Source: an uncultured Pelagibacteraceae bacterium (lineage in GTDB: Bacteria > Pseudomonadota > Alphaproteobacteria > Pelagibacterales > Pelagibacteraceae). From it: 64,000 bases of DNA. The translations under genes were made by a program, and so were the position numbers. Shown in pieces: positions 52,814-61,957 of this stretch (position 1 is the first letter of the stretch; every line of letters begins with the position of its first letter). Below the pieces are notes generated by a model. The model was not told the DNA's origin and made no database searches. It saw only the letters and a list, made by a program, of their open reading frames with translations. The stretch covers positions 1 to 64,000 of the forward strand of contig CACHWQ010000002.1 of the NCBI GenBank assembly GCA_902583645.1. The letters run 5' to 3'.

Positions 52814-52889
52814 GCCCTTGTAGCTCAGCTGGTAGAGCAATTGATTTGTAATCAATAGGTCCGCGGTTCGAATCCGTGCGGGGGCACCA
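52814..52889 (+). tRNA. trnT: tRNA-Thr (TGT anticodon), integration target
   Basis: 76-nt cloverleaf: acceptor GCCCTTG/CGGGGGC with two G-U pairs, D-arm GCTC/GAGC, anticodon stem ATTGA/TCAAT with loop TTTGTAA (anticodon TGT), T-arm GGTTCGAATCC, discriminator A, encoded CCA. Its 3' half from 52841 is repeated perfectly at 58999-59048. This copy keeps the 5' half and is therefore the functional gene. Confidence 0.97.
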
Positions 52890-52890
52890 T
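52841..52890 (+). repeat. left attachment repeat (tRNA-Thr 3' half)
   Basis: 50 bases from the anticodon stem to the base after CCA, identical to 58999-59048. Identity stops sharply on both sides (A versus T before it, C versus T after it). This copy completes the functional tRNA. Confidence 0.93.
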
Positions 52891-52992
52891 CAAATACTCA
52901 TTAATTTTCAATAAACTTAAAAATTACTTTATTTTTTTTAAAAATAAAAATCGTTGAATAAGACTATAGAATGGAAGGAAGAAGAACTGACT

Positions 52993-53014
52993 GTAGTGAA
53001 TTTGTAGTGAATTT
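52993..53014 (+). repeat. tandem 11-mer GTAGTGAATTT x2, left end of element
   Basis: Two exact head-to-tail copies of GTAGTGAATTT. The identical 22-bp unit, plus the preceding T, recurs at the other end of the element in the same orientation. Position and symmetry about the core repeat suggest recombinase arm-type binding sites; an operator or replication iteron is the alternative. The surrounding 183 bases between tRNA-Thr and the first gene hold no other feature I can support. Confidence 0.75.
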
Positions 53015-53072
53015 CAATTATCAATCAAAAACTTCTAGACCAAATGACTTAGTTCAATAATAATCAAAATTT

Positions 53073-54272
53073 CTAACATTTTATTATCTTATTTTGTAGA
53101 TGATCAAATTTATAACTTTGATGTTGGTTGTTAATAATTAGTTGAATTGCTTCCTCAATTGCATTTATAGGAACAATATACCACTCTTTTGGCATTTTAT
53201 AATTTCCTTTGTTATCAGCTATTTTAACATCAAGACATCTTTCAGAAAAAAAACTATGAATAATGCTCTCAAATTTTTTAGAAGGATAATTATAAACTTT
53301 ATATGTAGAAATAATTTTCACATCAGCCATTAAAAATGTAGTTTCATTAGGAGCATTTTTGATTCTTTCTTCTACAGAGGTGGTGCAAAAACCAATTTTA
53401 TATAAATCATTTATTGATTTAATTTCAGATTTTTTACTTAATGACGATAAAATATAGATATAACCAGTTGCTTTATCTTGACTATTGATATCGTTTTTAT
53501 GATAAGGGTCACTAAAACTTTCATTGAATTCTTTTAAAACCTCTTCGTTAGATTGAATAACAGAGCTTCCATTGTTATAAAGTTCTTTACCCAGTGATCT
53601 TAAATACATATTAGATTCTAATCCATTCTCAAAAATACAGCGAGTTCTTGGATCATTTCTTTTATCTCCTGTTTTACCTTCAAAATTTTTAATATTTTTT
53701 TCTTCTATTTTTTCTAAATATAATAATATACCATCTAGAATATAATATCTGTCTTCCTTTAATTGATGTTCTTTAAATTTAATTAATTTTCTTTTCCCAT
53801 TATTAATTTCTTTTTGAATCTGTTTAAAATTATTCTCATAATCTTTGAAATTTTTACATGGTTTTCTTCTTGCAACAAAGTCGGTATTAGCTCTATTTTT
53901 TGGGATGTTTTTTAAATTAAAAATATCTTCTTGATCGTTATCAAGTAAACCGAGAACATCATTTTCTAAAATATCATCAACAGTTTTATGTTCTTTTACT
54001 TTTGCAAGTAAATTATGTCTATCAAGGTCTTTTAAAATTGAAGCTTTATTAAAATCTTTTCTTAATTCTTTTAAACGAGAAAATAATTTTCTCTCAGTAA
54101 TATCGATACTTTCCTCAGGTTCTCTTTTATTTTCATCTATAAATCTATTAATTTCTTGAAAGGAGTCTATTAATCTTTGGTCTATAGTTATCGTTTGGCT
54201 AACTCTTAACTTTAAAATTCCAAGAGGATCATCGTTTAATATTTTTTTTAATTCACTTTCAAAATCTAACAT
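53073..54272 (-). CDS. GIY-YIG nuclease domain protein (T5orf172-like)
   Basis: 399-aa protein, last of the island operon. The C-terminal third holds a GIY-YIG nuclease fold: TGYIYILSS (first Tyr strand), NDLYKIGFCTTSVEERI (second strand and conserved Arg) and KFESIIHSFF (likely catalytic Glu), of the T5orf172/MUG113-like sort. Residues about 39-75 (FQEINRFIDENKREPEESID... ERKLFSRLKELR) match a module at the C-terminus of the adjacent helicase. The middle has a conserved-looking ARRKPCKNFKDYENNF. I chose ATG at 54272 over GTG at 54275; six bases separate it from the helicase stop. Probably the DNA-cleaving subunit; exact function unproven. Confidence 0.82.
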   Translation of the reverse strand: MLDFESELKKILNDDPLGILKLRVSQTITIDQRLIDSFQEINRFIDENKREPEESIDITERKLFSRLKELRKDFNKASILKDLDRHNLLAKVKEHKTVDDILENDVLGLLDNDQEDIFNLKNIPKNRANTDFVARRKPCKNFKDYENNFKQIQKEINNGKRKLIKFKEHQLKEDRYYILDGILLYLEKIEEKNIKNFEGKTGDKRNDPRTRCIFENGLESNMYLRSLGKELYNNGSSVIQSNEEVLKEFNESFSDPYHKNDINSQDKATGYIYILSSLSKKSEIKSINDLYKIGFCTTSVEERIKNAPNETTFLMADVKIISTYKVYNYPSKKFESIIHSFFSERCLDVKIADNKGNYKMPKEWYIVPINAIEEAIQLIINNQHQSYKFDHLQNKIIKC

Positions 54273-54278
54273 CACTAT

Positions 54279-56195
54279 CTATTTATTTTGTTGTCTTTTT
54301 TTATTCTTTAAAAAGACAATTGCTTCTGCCATTCTTCTTTCTAGGGGGTCGTTAGAACTCAACTTTGGCTCTCTATTATTTTTTTTCATAAATTCAGCTA
54401 TTTTTTTGTAAAGTATTACCGCTTCCTCATCTGTCATTAATATTTTTCGAGACTCAATTGTTTCACTTACTACTTTCAATAGCTTGGTGGTTACATTTTT
54501 AGACAAAACTTCAAAAGCTTTTTGAAATGGGTTTACCTTATCGATTAAATCAATATGCAATTCATCTATATTTATAAATGTATTTGCCATCCTAACCCAT
54601 TTCTTACCTCCTACTTCTTTGATCTCTCCATTTTTAATTACTGAGTCAGCCATAATATGTTGTCTTACTTGTTCTACTTCTTCTTTTGATATTTCTGGGT
54701 ACCTTGTTTGTATTATTTTCGGAATTAAAACTTTACTAATTACTTCAGGATCAACATTGCCAGGTATGGCTTTCATCATTTGTTCGTCCTGAAGAATTGT
54801 GGCCTTCAAATCATTTAGATCACTTTCTAATATTTGCTTTACTTTCTTTGTGCTTGGTTCTTTAAATCCATCAATTTCAATTGAACCTGGTTCTGCATTG
54901 CCTTGATTATTTTTTGTTCTAAAATTTACATGGGGTGCCAAGACTTGTTCCATTAATAATGAAGCTGTAATTGCTTTAAGAAGATTATTTACTGATATTT
55001 TGACTTCTCCATCAGCAACATCTGGCTGAGCAATCAAATTAGTAAACTGTGAGTGATTTTTATTTTCACTATCTCTCGTGGCTCTACCAATTATTTGGAT
55101 AATTTCTGTTAAAGAACCTCTCGCACCGATTGTTAAAGCATGTTCACAATATGGCCAATCAAAACCCTCTTTAGCCATGCCTAGTGCAATTATAATATCA
55201 ATGTCATCAACATGTTTAATTTTTCTCAAATAATCAACGATCTTATCTCTTTCTTTTTGATCATCATTTACTAGATCTGCTACCTTTATGATTTTCCCAT
55301 CCTTTCTTTTTATATGAATCACTCCTGTTTTTGGATCTTGTTTCTCTATATCCCCAATTAAATCTAAAATTGTATCCACTTCTTCGTGTTTACGTTTTGT
55401 GGACTCACCTGCATTAACGTTTGGTATATGAACAATAGTTTTTTGATCAGTATCTAATACTTCTCCTATGGCACTAAGATATCTACCCTGATAAAAATGA
55501 TAACCTATCCCTAAAGATTTTAAATATCTATAGCCATTTAATTGTTCATAATAATTATATGTTACAGGTGTAAATTTTATTTCATCCTCTGGCAAAAGAA
55601 CTGGAATATTATCACCTCTAAAATATGATCCAGTCATTGCAATTATATGTGCGTTTGTTTTATTCATCACCTTATTTAAAACTTCACCCAATCTACTTTC
55701 TATTGCTGCAGATACATGATGAAATTCATCAATTGCCAAAAGCGTATTATCAAATACTGATATATCACTTTGATTAAATGCAAATCTTAAAGTTGCATGT
55801 GTACAAATCATTATAGATTGTGATTTATCAGTTAAAAAAGTTTTAAAAGCTCTAACTTTCTTTTCATCACCACCGGGAGTACATAGGTTAAAATTTTCAT
55901 CATAATCCCAATTTGCAAAAAAACCATAATCTTTAAGGTTGGTTCTATCAAAAGATCCACCAATTGATCTTTCGGGCACAGCTACAATTACTTTTTTAAT
56001 GTTCTGATTGTAAAGCTTATCCAGGGCTAAAAACATTAATGCTCTAGACTTTCCTGATGCTGGTGGAGCTTTTAATAAAAGATATTGAGCTTCACGTTCT
56101 GCAAAAGCTCGGCGCTGCATCTCTCTCATGCCAAGTTTGTCTATATCTAAACTTTTACCGGTCTGTTCATATGGTACATTCACAAAATTTGGCAT
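54279..56195 (-). CDS. SF2 DEAD/DEAH-like helicase (DEFH box)
   Basis: 638-aa superfamily 2 ATPase. The Q-tip/Walker A region is LLLKAPPASGKSRALMFLALD near residue 45; motif II reads AIDEFHH (DEFH instead of DEAD/DEAH); motif III is MTGSY; the second RecA domain has IIALGMAKEGFDWPYCEHALTIGARGS and motif VI QIIGRATRD. No nuclease motif is visible, unlike type I HsdR or type III Res subunits. The last roughly 40 residues (IAEFMKKNNREPKLSS... ERRMAEAI) resemble the N-terminal module of the GIY-YIG partner. Two bases separate it from the methyltransferase, so it is translated in step. Likely the translocating motor of the system. Confidence 0.88.
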   Translation of the reverse strand: MPNFVNVPYEQTGKSLDIDKLGMREMQRRAFAEREAQYLLLKAPPASGKSRALMFLALDKLYNQNIKKVIVAVPERSIGGSFDRTNLKDYGFFANWDYDENFNLCTPGGDEKKVRAFKTFLTDKSQSIMICTHATLRFAFNQSDISVFDNTLLAIDEFHHVSAAIESRLGEVLNKVMNKTNAHIIAMTGSYFRGDNIPVLLPEDEIKFTPVTYNYYEQLNGYRYLKSLGIGYHFYQGRYLSAIGEVLDTDQKTIVHIPNVNAGESTKRKHEEVDTILDLIGDIEKQDPKTGVIHIKRKDGKIIKVADLVNDDQKERDKIVDYLRKIKHVDDIDIIIALGMAKEGFDWPYCEHALTIGARGSLTEIIQIIGRATRDSENKNHSQFTNLIAQPDVADGEVKISVNNLLKAITASLLMEQVLAPHVNFRTKNNQGNAEPGSIEIDGFKEPSTKKVKQILESDLNDLKATILQDEQMMKAIPGNVDPEVISKVLIPKIIQTRYPEISKEEVEQVRQHIMADSVIKNGEIKEVGGKKWVRMANTFINIDELHIDLIDKVNPFQKAFEVLSKNVTTKLLKVVSETIESRKILMTDEEAVILYKKIAEFMKKNNREPKLSSNDPLERRMAEAIVFLKNKKRQQNK

Positions 56196-56197
56196 TA

Positions 56198-58870
56198 TTA
56201 AAACAACTTCCTTTTTTCATTATTAACACATTTTTCATATTTTGAAAAAAGATAAGAAATTTTATCATCGTTGTTATTAATAATATGATCTTTAAAAATA
56301 ATCCTATCTACGAAATTATCATTAATTTCATGAACTCTTTTTAAACTATTTGGCATATCCGAGCTGTAAAGTTTTGCGATAGTTTGATCTGAAAATTTTT
56401 CCCTTTCATCGATTATTTTTAAAGAGAGATTTTCTAATTTCTTTATTTCATCATTGGTTAACTCATTTAATGGGAAAGTATTAAAGCACAAACCAGAAGA
56501 ATATCTTACATTGGTTTCTAACTTTCCACCGACACTTTTGACCCAGAGCATATGTATTTTAGATGATAGTATTGAAAATATGAACAATGGTGGATCATTA
56601 ATTATTTGAGCTGAGTTCATTGAAATATATCTTTTGTCAAAAAATCCAACAGGAAGATATTCACGATTTGATGAACTAGTACAAGGAATTAATAAAAAAT
56701 TTTTTTTGGCCTCATGTCTATATCTAAATTGATGCGATCTATTAACTAAAGATTTTGCAACATCTCCCCCACTTTTTCTAAACTTTTTAACCTTTTCAAT
56801 TCTTAATTTAATCTCAGGAATTTTTAGGGCATCATTTAGATCTTTATCATCTATCCAAATACACCATCTTTTTGTTCCATTAATAAATTCACTTCCACCT
56901 ATTAAAGGTCTAATAAATTTTTGAATTTTTTCATTCTGATTTAAAATCTCAACATATTCTCTCTGATTTAATTTTAAAAAACCACCTTCCAGAGGCATAT
57001 TTCCATAAATCATTTCTGGAATGATTTTCAAAAAATGATTTTCTCTATTTGAAACATTTATATTATTATTAGTTGTTAAATAAGGAGATATATAGTTGGT
57101 TTCCAGTATCGATGGACCGTCAATTAAAATTTTTTTTTTATTATCTTTCTTTCCTAAAGCAACTATAACGCAACTAACACCTGCATTATCTTTTGCGTTA
57201 TTTTTCCACTTAAAGGTTTTTACAGCAAAAATAATCTCAACATTTTTTAAAATTTCTGGCCAAAGAAGACTTACATGTTCTCCTTGGCAAATAGAATTGG
57301 TAGAAACAAAACAGCTTAAACTATGTTTTGTATTTTCAACAAACTTACTTGCTTTAAAATACCATAAAGAGACATAGTCTAATCGTTTAAAACCATGGAT
57401 ATGCCTTATGGAATTATAAACATCTTTTTTCTGTAAAAGATTTTGTTTTCTGGAGCCTTTAAATGGTGGGTTGCCAAATATATAAATAAAACTTGTTTTT
57501 TTTTCAAATTTGCAAAAATCTTGCCAATCAATACTTATAGAATTTTCACAAATTATTACTCCTGTTTCACTTAAGGGCAAAGAAGGTTTTATAACACCAA
57601 ATATATTTTTAAAAAGTAGATTCATTTGATGTTCTGCTAACCATAAAGATAATTTTGTAGTTTCTGTGGCATAATGAGATTTTTCTATTCCATAAAATTG
57701 ATTTAAGGAGATTCCAGAAACTGACATACGCCAATCATTAGGATTAATTTCTAATAATTTCTCAAAAATTTTGATTTCTAGTAAACAAAGCTGCTTATAG
57801 GCTATAATTAAAAAATTTCCAGATCCACATGCTGGATCAAAAACTTTTATATTGTAAATATATTTTAATATTTTTTTAATTTTAAATTCATCATTACCTG
57901 CTAATTCAATTTTTCTCTCAATATCATCGAGAAATAAGGGTTTAATTACTTTTAGAATATTTGGAACCGAGGTATAATGCATTTCATCTTCATCTCTTTC
58001 ATCTGGACTTACAACAGCTTGCAACATGGATCCCAAAATATCTGGATTAATTAAATGCCAATCAAGTGAAGCGCCGTCTATAATCATTTGCCGAGTTATT
58101 TTTGAAAATTCAGGTAAAATTATTTTACCATGAAATAAATTGCCATTCACATATGGAAAATCCTTAAGATAACTTTTTGTATTTAATCTATCTTCAATAT
58201 TCAAAACAGAAAATAAATTATTGAAAAATGTTTTTAAATCTGAACCATCTTTTTCTGTAAATTTTGTTATAGAATTTAAAAATTGATTTTTATTAAAAAT
58301 CTCTGAATCATCTGCATAATATAAAAATAGCAATCTAGTAAAAAAAAGATTTAAATGGTCCCTATATTTATCTAGATCATAATCAGTGTCATCCCTAATG
58401 ATTTGATCATATAATTTACCCATCTGATTAGCTGCTCTAATATCTGCAGGATTTTCTTTATCTAAAATTATCTTTTCTCGTCCAATTAAAGGTAAAAAAA
58501 AATTTAAATTTTCATCTAGTTTTGATAATTCTATATCCAAAGTATCACCAGTTTTAACATCTCTTGATAAAAAAGTTTTATAATCTGTAACAATTACGAA
58601 GCGGATTTTATATTTTTCTATTTTACTACTTTTTAAAATTTCATCTATAATGTCATGAACATCTTCATTTTCTAAAACATTTCTAAAATAAATTTTTTTT
58701 GACCAAATAATTTCATTACTATATTTAGATTGATTATAATCACCTTTTTTCAACCTATTAATTGAGGATTTAGGCAGCCCAAAAGCTAATAAAAAATCAT
58801 ATATAAAATTATTTTTATCTAATTTTAAAATAATTTTTTTTAAATTATCTTCAATTATATCAATGTTCAT
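56198..58870 (-). CDS. MmeI-like DNA adenine methyltransferase with degenerate nuclease domain
   Basis: 890-aa protein, first gene of the island operon. Order: N-terminal domain (1-125) in the position of the MmeI nuclease; helicase-spacer-like region (NPADIRAANQMGKLYDQI ... LNLFFTRLLFLYYADD); amino-methyltransferase with motif I FDPACGSGNFLIIAY near residue 345 and motif IV IFGNPPFKGSR near 465; then target-recognition and C-terminal regions (IRPLIGGSEFINGTKRWCIWID, ILSSKIHMLWVKSVGGKLETNVRYSSGLCFNTFPL, KLYSSDMPNSLKRVHEINDNFVD) that match type IIL enzymes closely. Where MmeI has the D...EMK nuclease residues this protein reads IYFRN, so the built-in nuclease appears dead. Expected activity is N6-adenine methylation at a specific asymmetric site. 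Confidence 0.88.
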   Translation of the reverse strand: MNIDIIEDNLKKIILKLDKNNFIYDFLLAFGLPKSSINRLKKGDYNQSKYSNEIIWSKKIYFRNVLENEDVHDIIDEILKSSKIEKYKIRFVIVTDYKTFLSRDVKTGDTLDIELSKLDENLNFFLPLIGREKIILDKENPADIRAANQMGKLYDQIIRDDTDYDLDKYRDHLNLFFTRLLFLYYADDSEIFNKNQFLNSITKFTEKDGSDLKTFFNNLFSVLNIEDRLNTKSYLKDFPYVNGNLFHGKIILPEFSKITRQMIIDGASLDWHLINPDILGSMLQAVVSPDERDEDEMHYTSVPNILKVIKPLFLDDIERKIELAGNDEFKIKKILKYIYNIKVFDPACGSGNFLIIAYKQLCLLEIKIFEKLLEINPNDWRMSVSGISLNQFYGIEKSHYATETTKLSLWLAEHQMNLLFKNIFGVIKPSLPLSETGVIICENSISIDWQDFCKFEKKTSFIYIFGNPPFKGSRKQNLLQKKDVYNSIRHIHGFKRLDYVSLWYFKASKFVENTKHSLSCFVSTNSICQGEHVSLLWPEILKNVEIIFAVKTFKWKNNAKDNAGVSCVIVALGKKDNKKKILIDGPSILETNYISPYLTTNNNINVSNRENHFLKIIPEMIYGNMPLEGGFLKLNQREYVEILNQNEKIQKFIRPLIGGSEFINGTKRWCIWIDDKDLNDALKIPEIKLRIEKVKKFRKSGGDVAKSLVNRSHQFRYRHEAKKNFLLIPCTSSSNREYLPVGFFDKRYISMNSAQIINDPPLFIFSILSSKIHMLWVKSVGGKLETNVRYSSGLCFNTFPLNELTNDEIKKLENLSLKIIDEREKFSDQTIAKLYSSDMPNSLKRVHEINDNFVDRIIFKDHIINNNDDKISYLFSKYEKCVNNEKRKLF

Positions 58871-58903
58871 TTTTTAAAGATTATCAAATTTATTTTTTTA
58901 AGT

Positions 58904-58925
58904 GTAGTGAATTTGTAGTGAATTT
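58904..58925 (+). repeat. tandem 11-mer GTAGTGAATTT x2, right end of element
   Basis: Exact copy of the 22-bp unit at 52993-53014, same orientation. It lies 34 bases upstream of the methyltransferase ATG, so it could also act as an operator of the operon. The 185 bases from that ATG to the next gene contain only this unit and the attachment repeat; a weak TTTGGA-16-TAGAAT promoter on the minus strand lies just upstream of the repeat. Confidence 0.75.
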
Positions 58926-58998
58926 ATTCTACTTGCTTGACGAGGATTCCAAAAGTTACTAATATCAACATTAATGAAAGGAAATTTTAAGAAGCTTT

Positions 58999-59048
58999 TT
59001 GATTTGTAATCAATAGGTCCGCGGTTCGAATCCGTGCGGGGGCACCAT
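58999..59048 (+). repeat. right attachment repeat, displaced tRNA-Thr 3' half
   Basis: Perfect 50-base copy of the tRNA-Thr 3' half including CCA. It lacks the acceptor 5' strand and D-arm, so it is not a second tRNA gene but the ancestral 3' end pushed aside by the insertion. The glycosyltransferase stop lies eight bases further. Confidence 0.93.
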
Positions 59049-59055
59049 TATTTAT

Positions 59056-60174
59056 TTAAATTTTTAAAGATTTTTCAACAATAGATAAATATTTGTTTAA
59101 ATTTTCAGTGTAATCAAATCTTTTCAAAGCTTTGTGCGCAATAATAATTTTTTTGTTTAATTTTTTTTTATTTAAATTAAAAAATAAAATTTTTTTAGCT
59201 AAACCTTTGTAATCTTCGACTCTTACTAGTTCTCCTCCTTGACCGTTTATTAAAATTTCCCTTGGTCCAGTCGGACAATTAGTTGAAATAACAAATTTTT
59301 TTAATGTTATTGCCTCTAATAAAACGTTTGGTAATCCTTCGTAACTAGACGATAGAACAAATAAATCTGCTAATCTAATATATTTGAATGGATTTGATTG
59401 AAAATTTATAAGCTTAACTTTATTTTTTAATTTATTATTTTTAATATAATTAATCATTTTTTTTTTATTTATACCCCTGCCAATTATTAAAAGTCTAAAA
59501 TTAATTTTATCTTTTATCAAATTAACACTTTTTAAAAGTGTTAAATGATCCTTTTGATCTGTAAATCTTCCAACATTAATAATTTTTAAAGTGGCATTTT
59601 TTTTTGTAAAAAAAGGAAATTTAATTTTTACTTTTGACTTTTTAATAATTTCTTTTTTGTTAAGTGGGTTATAAATACAATGTGCATTAATTGAGAAAAA
59701 TTTTTTAAATTGTCTTTTAAAATCATAGCTATTTACAATTACTTTATCAGCAAGATTTAAAAGTTTGTTATACAAATATTTTTTAAAAAAATTTTTAGAC
59801 CATCCAGTCGGCGATGAATTGGATCTTACAATTACTTTAATTCCAAATAATTTACATAAAATTGTACAATATAAATTTGCTTGAAAAGCAAATATAACGT
59901 AATCTTTATTTTTCAAAAAAATTTGAAGTAAAATAAATAAACAAATTATATATTTTTTTCTTCTACCTGATTTTTTCAAATCAAAAGACTTCGGATAAAT
60001 TACCTCTAAATTACTATCAAAATTTTTTTTAAATTTTTTATCTGCTGTAATAATTTTTATATTATTTAACTTTTTTGATAAATAATTTGTAATTATAAAT
60101 AAATTTTTCTCAACTCCTCCACCTTCAATTGATGGCATAAAAATTATTAGTTTTTTCTTTTTCCTCTTTTTCAT
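59056..60174 (-). CDS. glycosyltransferase, GT4 family
   Basis: 372-aa GT-B glycosyltransferase. The N-terminal IFMPSIEGGGVEKNLFIITNYLS is the acceptor-side motif of this group. The C-terminal half has INVGRFTDQKDHLTLLKS and the donor-site VLSSSYEGLPNVLLEAITLKKFVISTNCPTGPREIL with the conserved E..LPNVLLEA. Sugar and acceptor are unknown, but it probably acts in surface polysaccharide assembly together with the ugd/galU products. There is no signal peptide, and the N-terminus is very Lys-rich. Confidence 0.88.
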   Translation of the reverse strand: MKKRKKKKLIIFMPSIEGGGVEKNLFIITNYLSKKLNNIKIITADKKFKKNFDSNLEVIYPKSFDLKKSGRRKKYIICLFILLQIFLKNKDYVIFAFQANLYCTILCKLFGIKVIVRSNSSPTGWSKNFFKKYLYNKLLNLADKVIVNSYDFKRQFKKFFSINAHCIYNPLNKKEIIKKSKVKIKFPFFTKKNATLKIINVGRFTDQKDHLTLLKSVNLIKDKINFRLLIIGRGINKKKMINYIKNNKLKNKVKLINFQSNPFKYIRLADLFVLSSSYEGLPNVLLEAITLKKFVISTNCPTGPREILINGQGGELVRVEDYKGLAKKILFFNLNKKKLNKKIIIAHKALKRFDYTENLNKYLSIVEKSLKI

Positions 60175-60203
60175 TAATAAATTTATAGTTTTGTAAACTT
60201 ATA

Positions 60204-60278
60204 TGGTGGGACTGGTAGGTTACGCTCCTACTACCCCCTCGATGTCAACGAGGTACTCTACTATTGAGCTACAGTCCC
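60204..60278 (-). tRNA. trnV: tRNA-Val (GAC anticodon) with altered elbow
   Basis: 75-nt cloverleaf with perfect stems: acceptor GGGACTG/CAGTCCC, anticodon stem CCTCG/CGAGG around TTGACAT (anticodon GAC), T-stem GTAGG/CCTAC, discriminator A, encoded CCA. The D-loop is AATAGTA (A where G18 is expected) and the T-loop is AGCGTAA in place of TTCGAAT. The T54-A58 pair is thus exchanged to A54-T58 and the 18-55 pair becomes A-G, while G19-C56 is kept. Intact stems and CCA argue for a working tRNA. It sits between a membrane-protein gene and a glycosyltransferase. Confidence 0.8.
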
Positions 60279-60292
60279 AAAGGCATTTAAAT

Positions 60293-61957
60293 TTACTCTA
60301 GTTTATTTAAATAAAAAATTCTATATGAATTGATTATTTTGCAACTTTCTCTTCCTTTCAATTCATTTTGGCAATTATTTGATTTTTTTAAAATATTATT
60401 CTTTCTATCAAATAAAGTGTAATCATTACTCTTATTGATATTATAAAAAGGAGACTTTAATGGATTATATTTATAAACTTCATATTCATCTACAATTCTA
60501 TTTATGTTTCTACCAACAAAAACCATAAGTGTAATTAATAAAACTATTTTTATTTTTTTTATATTTTTTGAATAAATATATTTTTGTTCAAATAAAATTA
60601 AAGCAAGTGGAATAATAAAAAAAAGTGCAACTAAATGGTATCCTCCATATCTTAATGATGGATGATTATAAAACCACTCACAAAAAAATAAAAAAAGTAT
60701 TGTTACAAAGGCAATATATTGTTTGGGAAAATTTATTTTAATTTTTTTTGGTTTAAAAACTGCAATAAATATTAATACAAGAAATAATAAACCTAATAAA
60801 TTATCGGTTACTTTGTTGTAAAAGTAGTTATCTATCCATATTTTAAACCAATTAAAACCTTTTATAAATTCATCTGGATTCTCAACTTTATAATTTGGTG
60901 TTGCCCCAGCTTTAGACCACAATTCATAGAAATTTCCTGCCCATTCAATTGTGGATATATCCATACCCCAGGTAAAGGATTGTGCACAGGTTATTGATAG
61001 TGGATAAATTAAACACCCTGTGTAAGCTATATTGTAAAATAACATTAATAATCCAAATAATATTGAAATATTAATAATTTTAAAGTCTTTGTAAAAAATA
61101 TTTATTTTTTTAAAATTATAAAACTTAAAATATATTACAAAAAATAATAATCCATAAATTCCATAAAAAGATTTTAAACTAACAATAAAAGTTATTAAGA
61201 TTAAAAAATTTTCTAATTTTTTTTTATCTAGCTTCTTTTGAATTAATATTTGAAATATTAACAAAATGCATAAAAATATTAAAATTATAGCTGATCTGTC
61301 AGTTCCATGCTCTGCTAATCTATAAAAAAAAGTATTTATAAAGGCAAAAATCAAAACGCTTAAAAAATTATGAAAAGTAATAATTTTACTATTCGTATTG
61401 AAAATTTCTTTAAAAATAATTGTATTAAAAAATATTAAAATTAAAGCTGGACCTAAAAAATAAAAATAATCTTGTGTAAATGGAAGCTTTAGTAATGAAT
61501 GAAAAAAAAATAATGATGAGATATGATTTAATGCTAAGTCAAAGATACCTATTCCAAATTCAAGCTTACTTGCAGTCAAATTACTTATAAAACTTAAATG
61601 ATAGTATGGAAAATCATCATGGCTTTTAAAGTATAGAATCGAAAAAATTGACAATATTAGGAAGAAAAAGAAATATTTATTATCTTTTTTTTTTAAAAAA
61701 TCTTTTGTTAGGAAGAAATATTTTATAGAGAGAAGAAAACCCATTAATATTATTAATGAATTGTGTAAATAATCGTGTTTGAAAAACAAATTTGATAAAT
61801 AAGATATTAAAGTCAAAGTAAATATTCCATATAAGCCTGTATATCCAATATTTGAATATTTATTATATTTCGTTAAATATTTTGAAAATAGAAATCCATA
61901 GCCAATTACTGAAAAAGTTAAAAAAAAATATATTAAAACAAAACTTACAAACTCCAT
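60293..61957 (-). CDS. large polytopic membrane protein of unknown function
   Basis: 554-aa protein made almost entirely of hydrophobic segments (roughly twelve to fourteen) starting VSFVLIYFFLTFSVIGYGFLF, with loops such as SHDDFPYYHLSFISNLTASKLEFGIGIFDLALNHISS and AEHGTDRSAIILIF. The layout of many helices with an acidic first loop (HDDF) and a short C-terminal soluble tail recalls GT-C glycosyltransferases or oligosaccharide polymerases, but I recognise no diagnostic motif. Its neighbours (glycosyltransferase, SDR, oxygenase) suggest a cell-surface role. Function unassigned. Confidence 0.75.
   Translation of the reverse strand: MEFVSFVLIYFFLTFSVIGYGFLFSKYLTKYNKYSNIGYTGLYGIFTLTLISYLSNLFFKHDYLHNSLIILMGFLLSIKYFFLTKDFLKKKDNKYFFFFLILSIFSILYFKSHDDFPYYHLSFISNLTASKLEFGIGIFDLALNHISSLFFFHSLLKLPFTQDYFYFLGPALILIFFNTIIFKEIFNTNSKIITFHNFLSVLIFAFINTFFYRLAEHGTDRSAIILIFLCILLIFQILIQKKLDKKKLENFLILITFIVSLKSFYGIYGLLFFVIYFKFYNFKKINIFYKDFKIINISILFGLLMLFYNIAYTGCLIYPLSITCAQSFTWGMDISTIEWAGNFYELWSKAGATPNYKVENPDEFIKGFNWFKIWIDNYFYNKVTDNLLGLLFLVLIFIAVFKPKKIKINFPKQYIAFVTILFLFFCEWFYNHPSLRYGGYHLVALFFIIPLALILFEQKYIYSKNIKKIKIVLLITLMVFVGRNINRIVDEYEVYKYNPLKSPFYNINKSNDYTLFDRKNNILKKSNNCQNELKGRESCKIINSYRIFYLNKLE

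Follow-up and report, generated by a model that had tools for sequence, protein, structure and literature searches.

A DnmA-YeeB-YeeC-type operon, a putative split restriction-modification system, as the sole cargo of an integrase-less tRNA-Thr element in a Pelagibacteraceae genome

The closest described relatives of the three-gene operon considered here form the DnmA-YeeB-YeeC cluster, represented by yeeABC in Bacillus subtilis and by homologues in Vibrio crassostreae. The cluster is reported to be conserved and to have been gained by horizontal transfer (PMC9973331, PMC7261158), and neighbourhood analysis showed that its gene order is conserved (PMC9973331). As cited in PMC7261158, Morgan et al. 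(2009) placed DnmA among the MmeI homologues that lack a nuclease motif and are flanked by yeeB- and yeeC-like genes, and a Type I-like system was suggested for this combination in the same year. DnmA methylates the non-palindromic target GACGAG (PMC7261158, PMC9973331). In V. crassostreae, deletion of the dnmA or the yeeB homologue made cells more sensitive to certain phages (Piel et al., as cited in PMC9973331). We have analysed a 64,000-nucleotide stretch of DNA from an uncultured Pelagibacteraceae bacterium (contig CACHWQ010000002.1, positions 1 to 64,000), referred to as the window, in which a first-pass annotation had drawn attention to an operon encoding an adenine methyltransferase (MTase), a superfamily 2 (SF2) helicase and a GIY-YIG nuclease.

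Judged from its sequence, this operon is a new member of the DnmA-YeeB-YeeC cluster. The order MTase, SF2 helicase and T5orf172/GIY-YIG nuclease on one strand is the same, and the window MTase, like DnmA, lacks the PD-ExK motif of MmeI. The annotation had proposed a split restriction-modification (RM) system matching no described layout. The first part of this proposal is supported by co-occurrence of the genes, loss of the nuclease triad of the MTase and intact catalytic motifs in all three proteins. The second part is wrong: the operon does not share the organisation of Type I, BREX (bacteriophage exclusion) or DISARM (defence island system associated with restriction-modification), but the trio is the cluster regarded as Type I-like in 2009 and investigated further in 2020 and 2023 (PMC7261158, PMC9973331); a match to a described system was among the outcomes that the annotation itself had listed as counting against it. 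The reading that we prefer, with a probability of roughly 0.78, is that the operon is a DnmA-YeeB-YeeC-type, ATP-dependent split RM system resembling Type I and Type I single-polypeptide (ISP) enzymes, carried as the sole cargo of a tRNA-Thr element which would most likely be moved by a recombinase acting in trans.

Organisation and co-occurrence of the three genes

The three open reading frames (ORFs) were confirmed on one strand at the positions first annotated, with gaps of 2 bases between MTase and helicase and of 3 or 6 bases between helicase and nuclease, the latter set by the start codon used for the nuclease (Table 1). Pfam matches of the MTase to the MmeI_N, hel (helicase-spacer), Mtase, TRD (target-recognition domain) and C domains constitute the full MmeI architecture, and the protein aligns with the MmeI structure 5hr4 (E=1.9e-160). 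The annotation had also suggested a comparison with PADLOC models. With PADLOC 2.0.0 the MTase is identified as a Type IIG enzyme-methyltransferase (E 6e-254); the models tested do not cover the full system and a full-length helicase model is absent among them. The helicase matches DEAD and Helicase_C in Pfam and has an SF2 fold in Foldseek, with matches that include EcoR124I and LlaBIII. The nuclease consists of a helical N-terminal domain followed by a C-terminal T5orf172/GIY-YIG domain (Pfam T5orf172/MUG113), in which the GIY-YIG residues are Y274, K293/I294/G295, R304, E336 and H340; its AlphaFold2 model has a mean pLDDT (predicted local distance difference test score) of 86. A 44-residue stretch is weakly related between the C-terminus of the helicase (591-635) and the N-terminus of the nuclease (34-77), with an hhalign probability of 57% and E 1e-4 in a single comparison, and could possibly be a common docking or DNA-binding module.

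Co-occurrence of the genes was investigated with the helicase as bait, since it is the most conserved member of the trio, with 47-78% identity to the window protein in alignment A3. Scanning one genome per species detected at least 584 loci with helicase relatives, the best 80 of which derive from Bacteroidota, Campylobacterota, Planctomycetota, Bacillota, candidate phyla, an archaeal metagenome-assembled genome and others. Viral contigs supply 41 further loci and 263 plasmid records also contain helicase matches. The 80 genomic and 41 viral-contig loci, 121 in total, were chosen by helicase similarity for analysis of synteny, remoter helicases lying outside the set. An MmeI-type MTase is encoded upstream of the helicase in all 94 testable loci. 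On the downstream side, 115 of 116 testable loci encode a GIY-YIG protein, and the sole locus without one has a truncated helicase match; Bacillota members with the trio include L119 and L176. The repeated co-occurrence that the annotation had proposed to look for is observed.

Nuclease loss, motif conservation and the proposed mechanism

The catalytic residues for cutting in MmeI are D70, E80 and K82, whose positions were placed through the 5hr4 alignment. The window MTase has E, R and V at these positions. In an alignment of 125 MmeI-family proteins, 102 linked to a helicase and 23 classed as unlinked, the D-E-K triad is retained in none of the 102 helicase-linked MTases, nine of which have gaps at the triad columns, versus 16 of the 23 classed as unlinked. 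Five of the latter are clearly non-DEK; once more sequence was fetched, three of these were observed to have a helicase and a nuclease further downstream and two were not. As judged from these residues, loss of the MTase's own PD-ExK nuclease is shown. Conversely, nuclease residues Y274, K293, G295, R304, E336 and H340 are invariant in 42 of 42 sequences and I294 in 40 of 42, the residues of helicase motifs I, II and VI are invariant in 34 of 34 sequences, and the MTase motifs DPACGSGNF and NPP[FY] are intact and nearly invariant. Loss of the MTase triad in combination with invariant GIY-YIG and helicase motifs suggests a division of labour in which the MTase would rely on its partner proteins.

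Substitution rates point in the same direction for the two partner genes. Comparison of the window with the trio of a relative, G024, by the Nei-Gojobori method (NG86) gave nonsynonymous (dN) and synonymous (dS) values of 0.10 and 1.6 for the helicase, this dS being close to saturation, and of 0.15 and 0.83 for the nuclease, indicating that both genes are under purifying selection. The MTases of the same pair are far more divergent, being 49% identical overall and 40% identical in the TRD. Across the family the TRD is the most variable MTase domain, with a median identity of 38.5% versus 52.3% for the MTase core, the divergence which specificity switching would predict.

Although it does not have the organisation of Type IIL, Type I, Type ISP, BREX or DISARM, the operon should work like a Type I/ISP system. 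By analogy with MmeI and DnmA, the MmeI-type protein would read an asymmetric site through its TRD and methylate a single adenine in one of the two strands. Where a site is unmodified, the MTase would load the SF2 protein, the DNA would be translocated and translocation would bring in the GIY-YIG nuclease, which would cut. Methylation of only one strand leaves an unmodified daughter site after each replication, such that a safeguard is expected, and cleavage would probably require that two complexes converge from sites in opposite orientation, as is the case for Type III and ISP enzymes.

The carrier element and its mobility

That the trio is the only cargo of a mobile element, as first annotated, is confirmed by duplication of the tRNA end, matched tandem 11-mers at the two ends, an empty site in relatives and a 99.4% identical copy in another genome (Table 1). 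The two GTAGTGAATTT pairs are the only exact tandem 11-mers in the window. In five of nine well-assembled relatives the site is empty, tRNA-Thr being followed by nadK within 5-14 bp, and in a sixth the distance is ~155 bp; where the site is occupied, nadK comes after the far tRNA copy. The window has a further 2.9 kb (59048-61957), encoding a glycosyltransferase, tRNA-Val and a 554-aa membrane protein, between the far attachment copy and nadK. Decisive is the copy in Pelagibacteraceae AG-414-J19 (L100), which is 99.4% identical to the window over 5,148 bp, up to the end of the L100 contig. The match stops precisely with the final base of the repeat (window position 59047), and the neighbouring nadK is only 74% identical in DNA to that of the window. 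An almost identical element with an exact attachment boundary beside so divergent a gene signifies recent transfer between divergent lineages; on this comparison the element has moved recently between species as a unit with its attachment boundary.

Table 1. Coordinates of the operon and of its carrier element in the window
Feature	Position	Strand	Remarks
tRNA-Thr(TGT), attachment gene	52814-52889	+	ARAGORN; last 49 bp (52841-52889) are the att core
Integrative element, three genes, no integrase	52890-59047		6,158 bp; bounded by tRNA duplication, matched end repeats, empty site and copy boundary
Proximal tandem 11-bp repeat, GTAGTGAATTT x2	52993-53014	+	putative integrase arm-type sites
YeeC-like nuclease	53073-54275	-	400 aa from GTG, 399 aa from next ATG
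YeeB-like SF2 helicase/translocase	54279-56195	-	638 aa; best conserved gene of the trio
DnmA/MmeI-type N6-adenine MTase with TRD	56198-58870	-	890 aa
Distal tandem 11-bp repeat, GTAGTGAATTT x2	58904-58925	+	same orientation as proximal
Conserved sequence of the distal end, separating arm repeat and att core	58926-58998	+	alignment A1; profile R1 matches 58902-59015
Far attachment site, 49-bp copy of tRNA-Thr 3' end	58999-59047	+	identical to 52841-52889

The trio, carried alone by a mobile element and frequent on plasmids, could alternatively be a selfish addiction module, in which restriction mainly kills cells that lose the element and stabilises it, phage defence being secondary. Addiction is established for Type II RM systems; ATP-dependent systems are usually poorly addictive. 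Deletion of dnmA in B. subtilis produced no growth defect (PMC7261158), implying that post-segregational killing does not occur at least there, and we consider this explanation improbable.

No integrase ORF was detected among the ORFs of the window element, and the search for a tyrosine recombinase was likewise negative in the window genome, an 82%-complete assembly from which a helper could be missing. Sister elements were searched for with the distal-end profile R1 over 218 Pelagibacter genomes, yielding matches in 15, or 14 after a weak match in G233 (L099) was discarded; the window genome is among them and one match, in G289, lies at another site. Cargo differs between sisters. The same MTase-helicase-nuclease trio is present in G024, a Type I RM system in G284, and a IIG-type MTase with an HKD-Snf2 helicase in G237, similar PLD/Snf2 helicases occurring in G224 and G275. 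Mrr-helicase proteins that look like the N-terminal half of an ISP enzyme are encoded in G567 (by profile) and in G241 and G163 (by similarity), MotA/ExbB-like and SNase genes in G130 and G555, TerB and PrsW genes in G176, and the sisters carry further cargo beyond these genes. The Mrr-type nuclease and SF2 helicase proteins, at L097 (13074-15836) and also in L094 and L098, are 920-1047 aa in length; an MTase domain was not found in that of L097 (920 aa), the only one scanned. A recognisable integrase ORF was seen in none of the sister elements.

The absence of an integrase, together with the occurrence of phage homing endonucleases among GIY-YIG/T5orf172 nucleases, could be taken to mean that the nuclease and helicase serve the element's own mobility in a homing-like manner and not defence. 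A GIY-YIG gene is nevertheless absent from other elements that share the ends and the site of the window element, and the same trio occurs in plasmids and unrelated genomes, making this very unlikely. We favour instead a recombinase supplied in trans, the most likely means by which an element with an attachment core and arm-type sites but no integrase would be moved.

Tandem 11-bp repeats were observed at both ends in 14 of 16 elements examined between two cores, the exceptions being L068, without a proximal partner, and L228, without repeats. The two ends of each of the 14 elements have the same or nearly the same variant, and variants differ between elements, examples being TGTAGTGAATT, TGAAGTGAATT, TGAAGTGAAAT, TAAGTGAATT, TGAAGTCTTTT, TGTAGTCTTT, TGTAGTCGATT, TGTTGTCAGAT and AGTGTGACGTT. 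Two genomes, G013 and G220, each contain two elements stacked at tRNA-Thr, with cores at 2521/4437/5770 in L227 (G013) and 7223/8039/15861 in L096 (G220), in the orientation analysed; some stacked elements are only 0.8-1.9 kb and encode small secreted or pilin-like proteins, and each has its own arm repeat variant. A satellite-like marine contig, L054 (1-8916), encodes a Rep/primase-like protein, TerS and an integrase, and its attP has the same tRNA-Thr core with near-tandem 11-mers of another sequence ~90 bp off on each side. Given this anatomy and the matched end repeats, the 11-bp repeats are best interpreted as integrase arm sites, and element mobility is likewise best interpreted as the work of a trans-acting integrase. 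A small lipoprotein of L054 resembles one encoded in element L067.

The tRNA-Thr core is present in 24 viral contigs, of which 22 have a complete tRNA-Thr gene and only L054 represents an attP; in L243 the core is at the very end of the contig, with no tRNA call or integrase match. Among viral contigs the L054 integrase retrieved only itself and no exact GTAGTGAATTT arm repeat was found, and a degenerate arm-repeat pattern gave two chance matches in unrelated phages. A core tyrosine recombinase was rejected as an element-specific helper, being near-universal in the genus (182 of 218 Pelagibacter genomes), usually in single copy, and it was also not found in several element-bearing genomes. This protein of ~319 aa (G024 C2:306086-307042 and 181 other genomes) could be a chromosomal Xer-type enzyme.

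As a route by which streamlined SAR11 bacteria may acquire defence genes, the element provides a minimal, recently transferred vehicle, of three genes and no integrase, accompanied by an exact boundary, an empty site and about a dozen sister elements with other cargo. We consider it an even chance that SAR11 hosts a large family of integrase-less tRNA-Thr(TGT) elements which would shuttle interchangeable defence systems between species via integrases of co-resident phages or satellites, the arm variants acting as helper addresses. The arm-site sequences make testable the question of which agents transfer defence genes among the most abundant bacteria of the ocean. A description of integrase-less SAR11 elements was not found in an open-access literature of limited coverage, which is not proof of novelty.

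Comparison with known systems

Several observations weigh against the reading of the operon as a functional split system moved in trans. Its likeness to DnmA-YeeB-YeeC rests on gene order, protein families and published descriptions, and Foldseek with the nuclease model gave no confident match, a small beta domain dominating the search and the N-terminal part remaining unmatched. No integrase was identified whose arm type is GTAGTGAATTT, and the trans helper is hypothetical. In B. subtilis, deletion of dnmA left plasmid transformation unchanged (PMC7261158), deletion of yeeB or yeeC left susceptibility to three phages unchanged (PMC9973331), and the authors of this work called the cluster a relic. 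A scan of B. subtilis as a control genome gave a match to the MTase family only.

The B. subtilis genetics, providing neither restriction nor phage protection, would fit a relic in which the MTase alone works, as an orphan epigenetic regulator like DnmA, and the helicase and nuclease are passengers. Passengers would not be expected to show the invariant catalytic residues observed in 34 helicase and 42 nuclease relatives, nor purifying selection on both genes; the trio also moves as an intact unit, and the V. crassostreae deletions described above raise phage sensitivity. A relic is accordingly judged a poor explanation of the window operon. The B. subtilis copy is apparently inactive and located in a defunct element, whereas the window trio makes up the entire cargo of an element which moved recently, has no integrase and resides in a streamlined SAR11 genome. 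Notwithstanding the B. subtilis negatives, the clean split between helicase-linked, nuclease-less MmeI homologues and nuclease-bearing ones provides strong comparative evidence for yeeABC-type trios functioning as split restriction systems in most hosts.

Relative to MmeI and other Type IIL (IIG) enzymes, homology of the window MTase is full-length, extending across the MTase, TRD, spacer and N-domain. These enzymes have a functional N-terminal PD-ExK nuclease in the same polypeptide, however, whereas in the window the triad is lost and a helicase and nuclease are separate. Type I and Type ISP systems combine recognition, adenine methylation, ATP-dependent translocation and cleavage, as proposed for the trio. 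The operon does not consist of separate HsdS, HsdM and HsdR subunits as in Type I, nor of the single nuclease-helicase-MTase-TRD polypeptide of Type ISP, being three separate ORFs, and its nuclease is GIY-YIG instead of PD-ExK.

BREX is defined by PglZ and BrxC/PglY with PglX; in the element PglX scores are marginal and PglZ and BrxC genes are absent. For DISARM, the DrmA, DrmB and DrmC models match none of the three proteins, the MTase giving secondary DrmMI and weak DrmD scores. The secondary similarity of the MTase to DrmMI and mad2, and low-score similarity of the helicase to PbeA and Cas3-type SF2 proteins, could suggest a BREX/DISARM-like exclusion in which methylation labels self DNA and foreign DNA is kept from replicating by the helicase-nuclease, with no cleavage linked to the site. 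This is unlikely, if slightly less so than a relic or an addiction module, as PglZ, BrxC, DrmA/B and other hallmark genes are absent from the element and the invariant nuclease active site suggests cutting.

As a vehicle, the window element resembles phage satellites and tycheposons, including phage-inducible chromosomal islands (PICI), phage-inducible chromosomal minimalist islands (PICMI) and VEIME, which are small site-specific islands in marine bacteria able to carry defence genes (PMC10803314). Satellites are reported to rely on an integrase of their own (PMC10803314), which the window and sister elements lack. Cis-mobilizable elements (CIMEs) are flanked by attachment sites, lack a recombinase and are thought to be moved in trans, and the window element has likewise kept its attachment and arm sites in the absence of a recombinase. 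CIMEs are described as decayed integrative and conjugative elements, whereas here a family is observed with conserved ends, matched 11-bp arm variants and interchangeable cargo.

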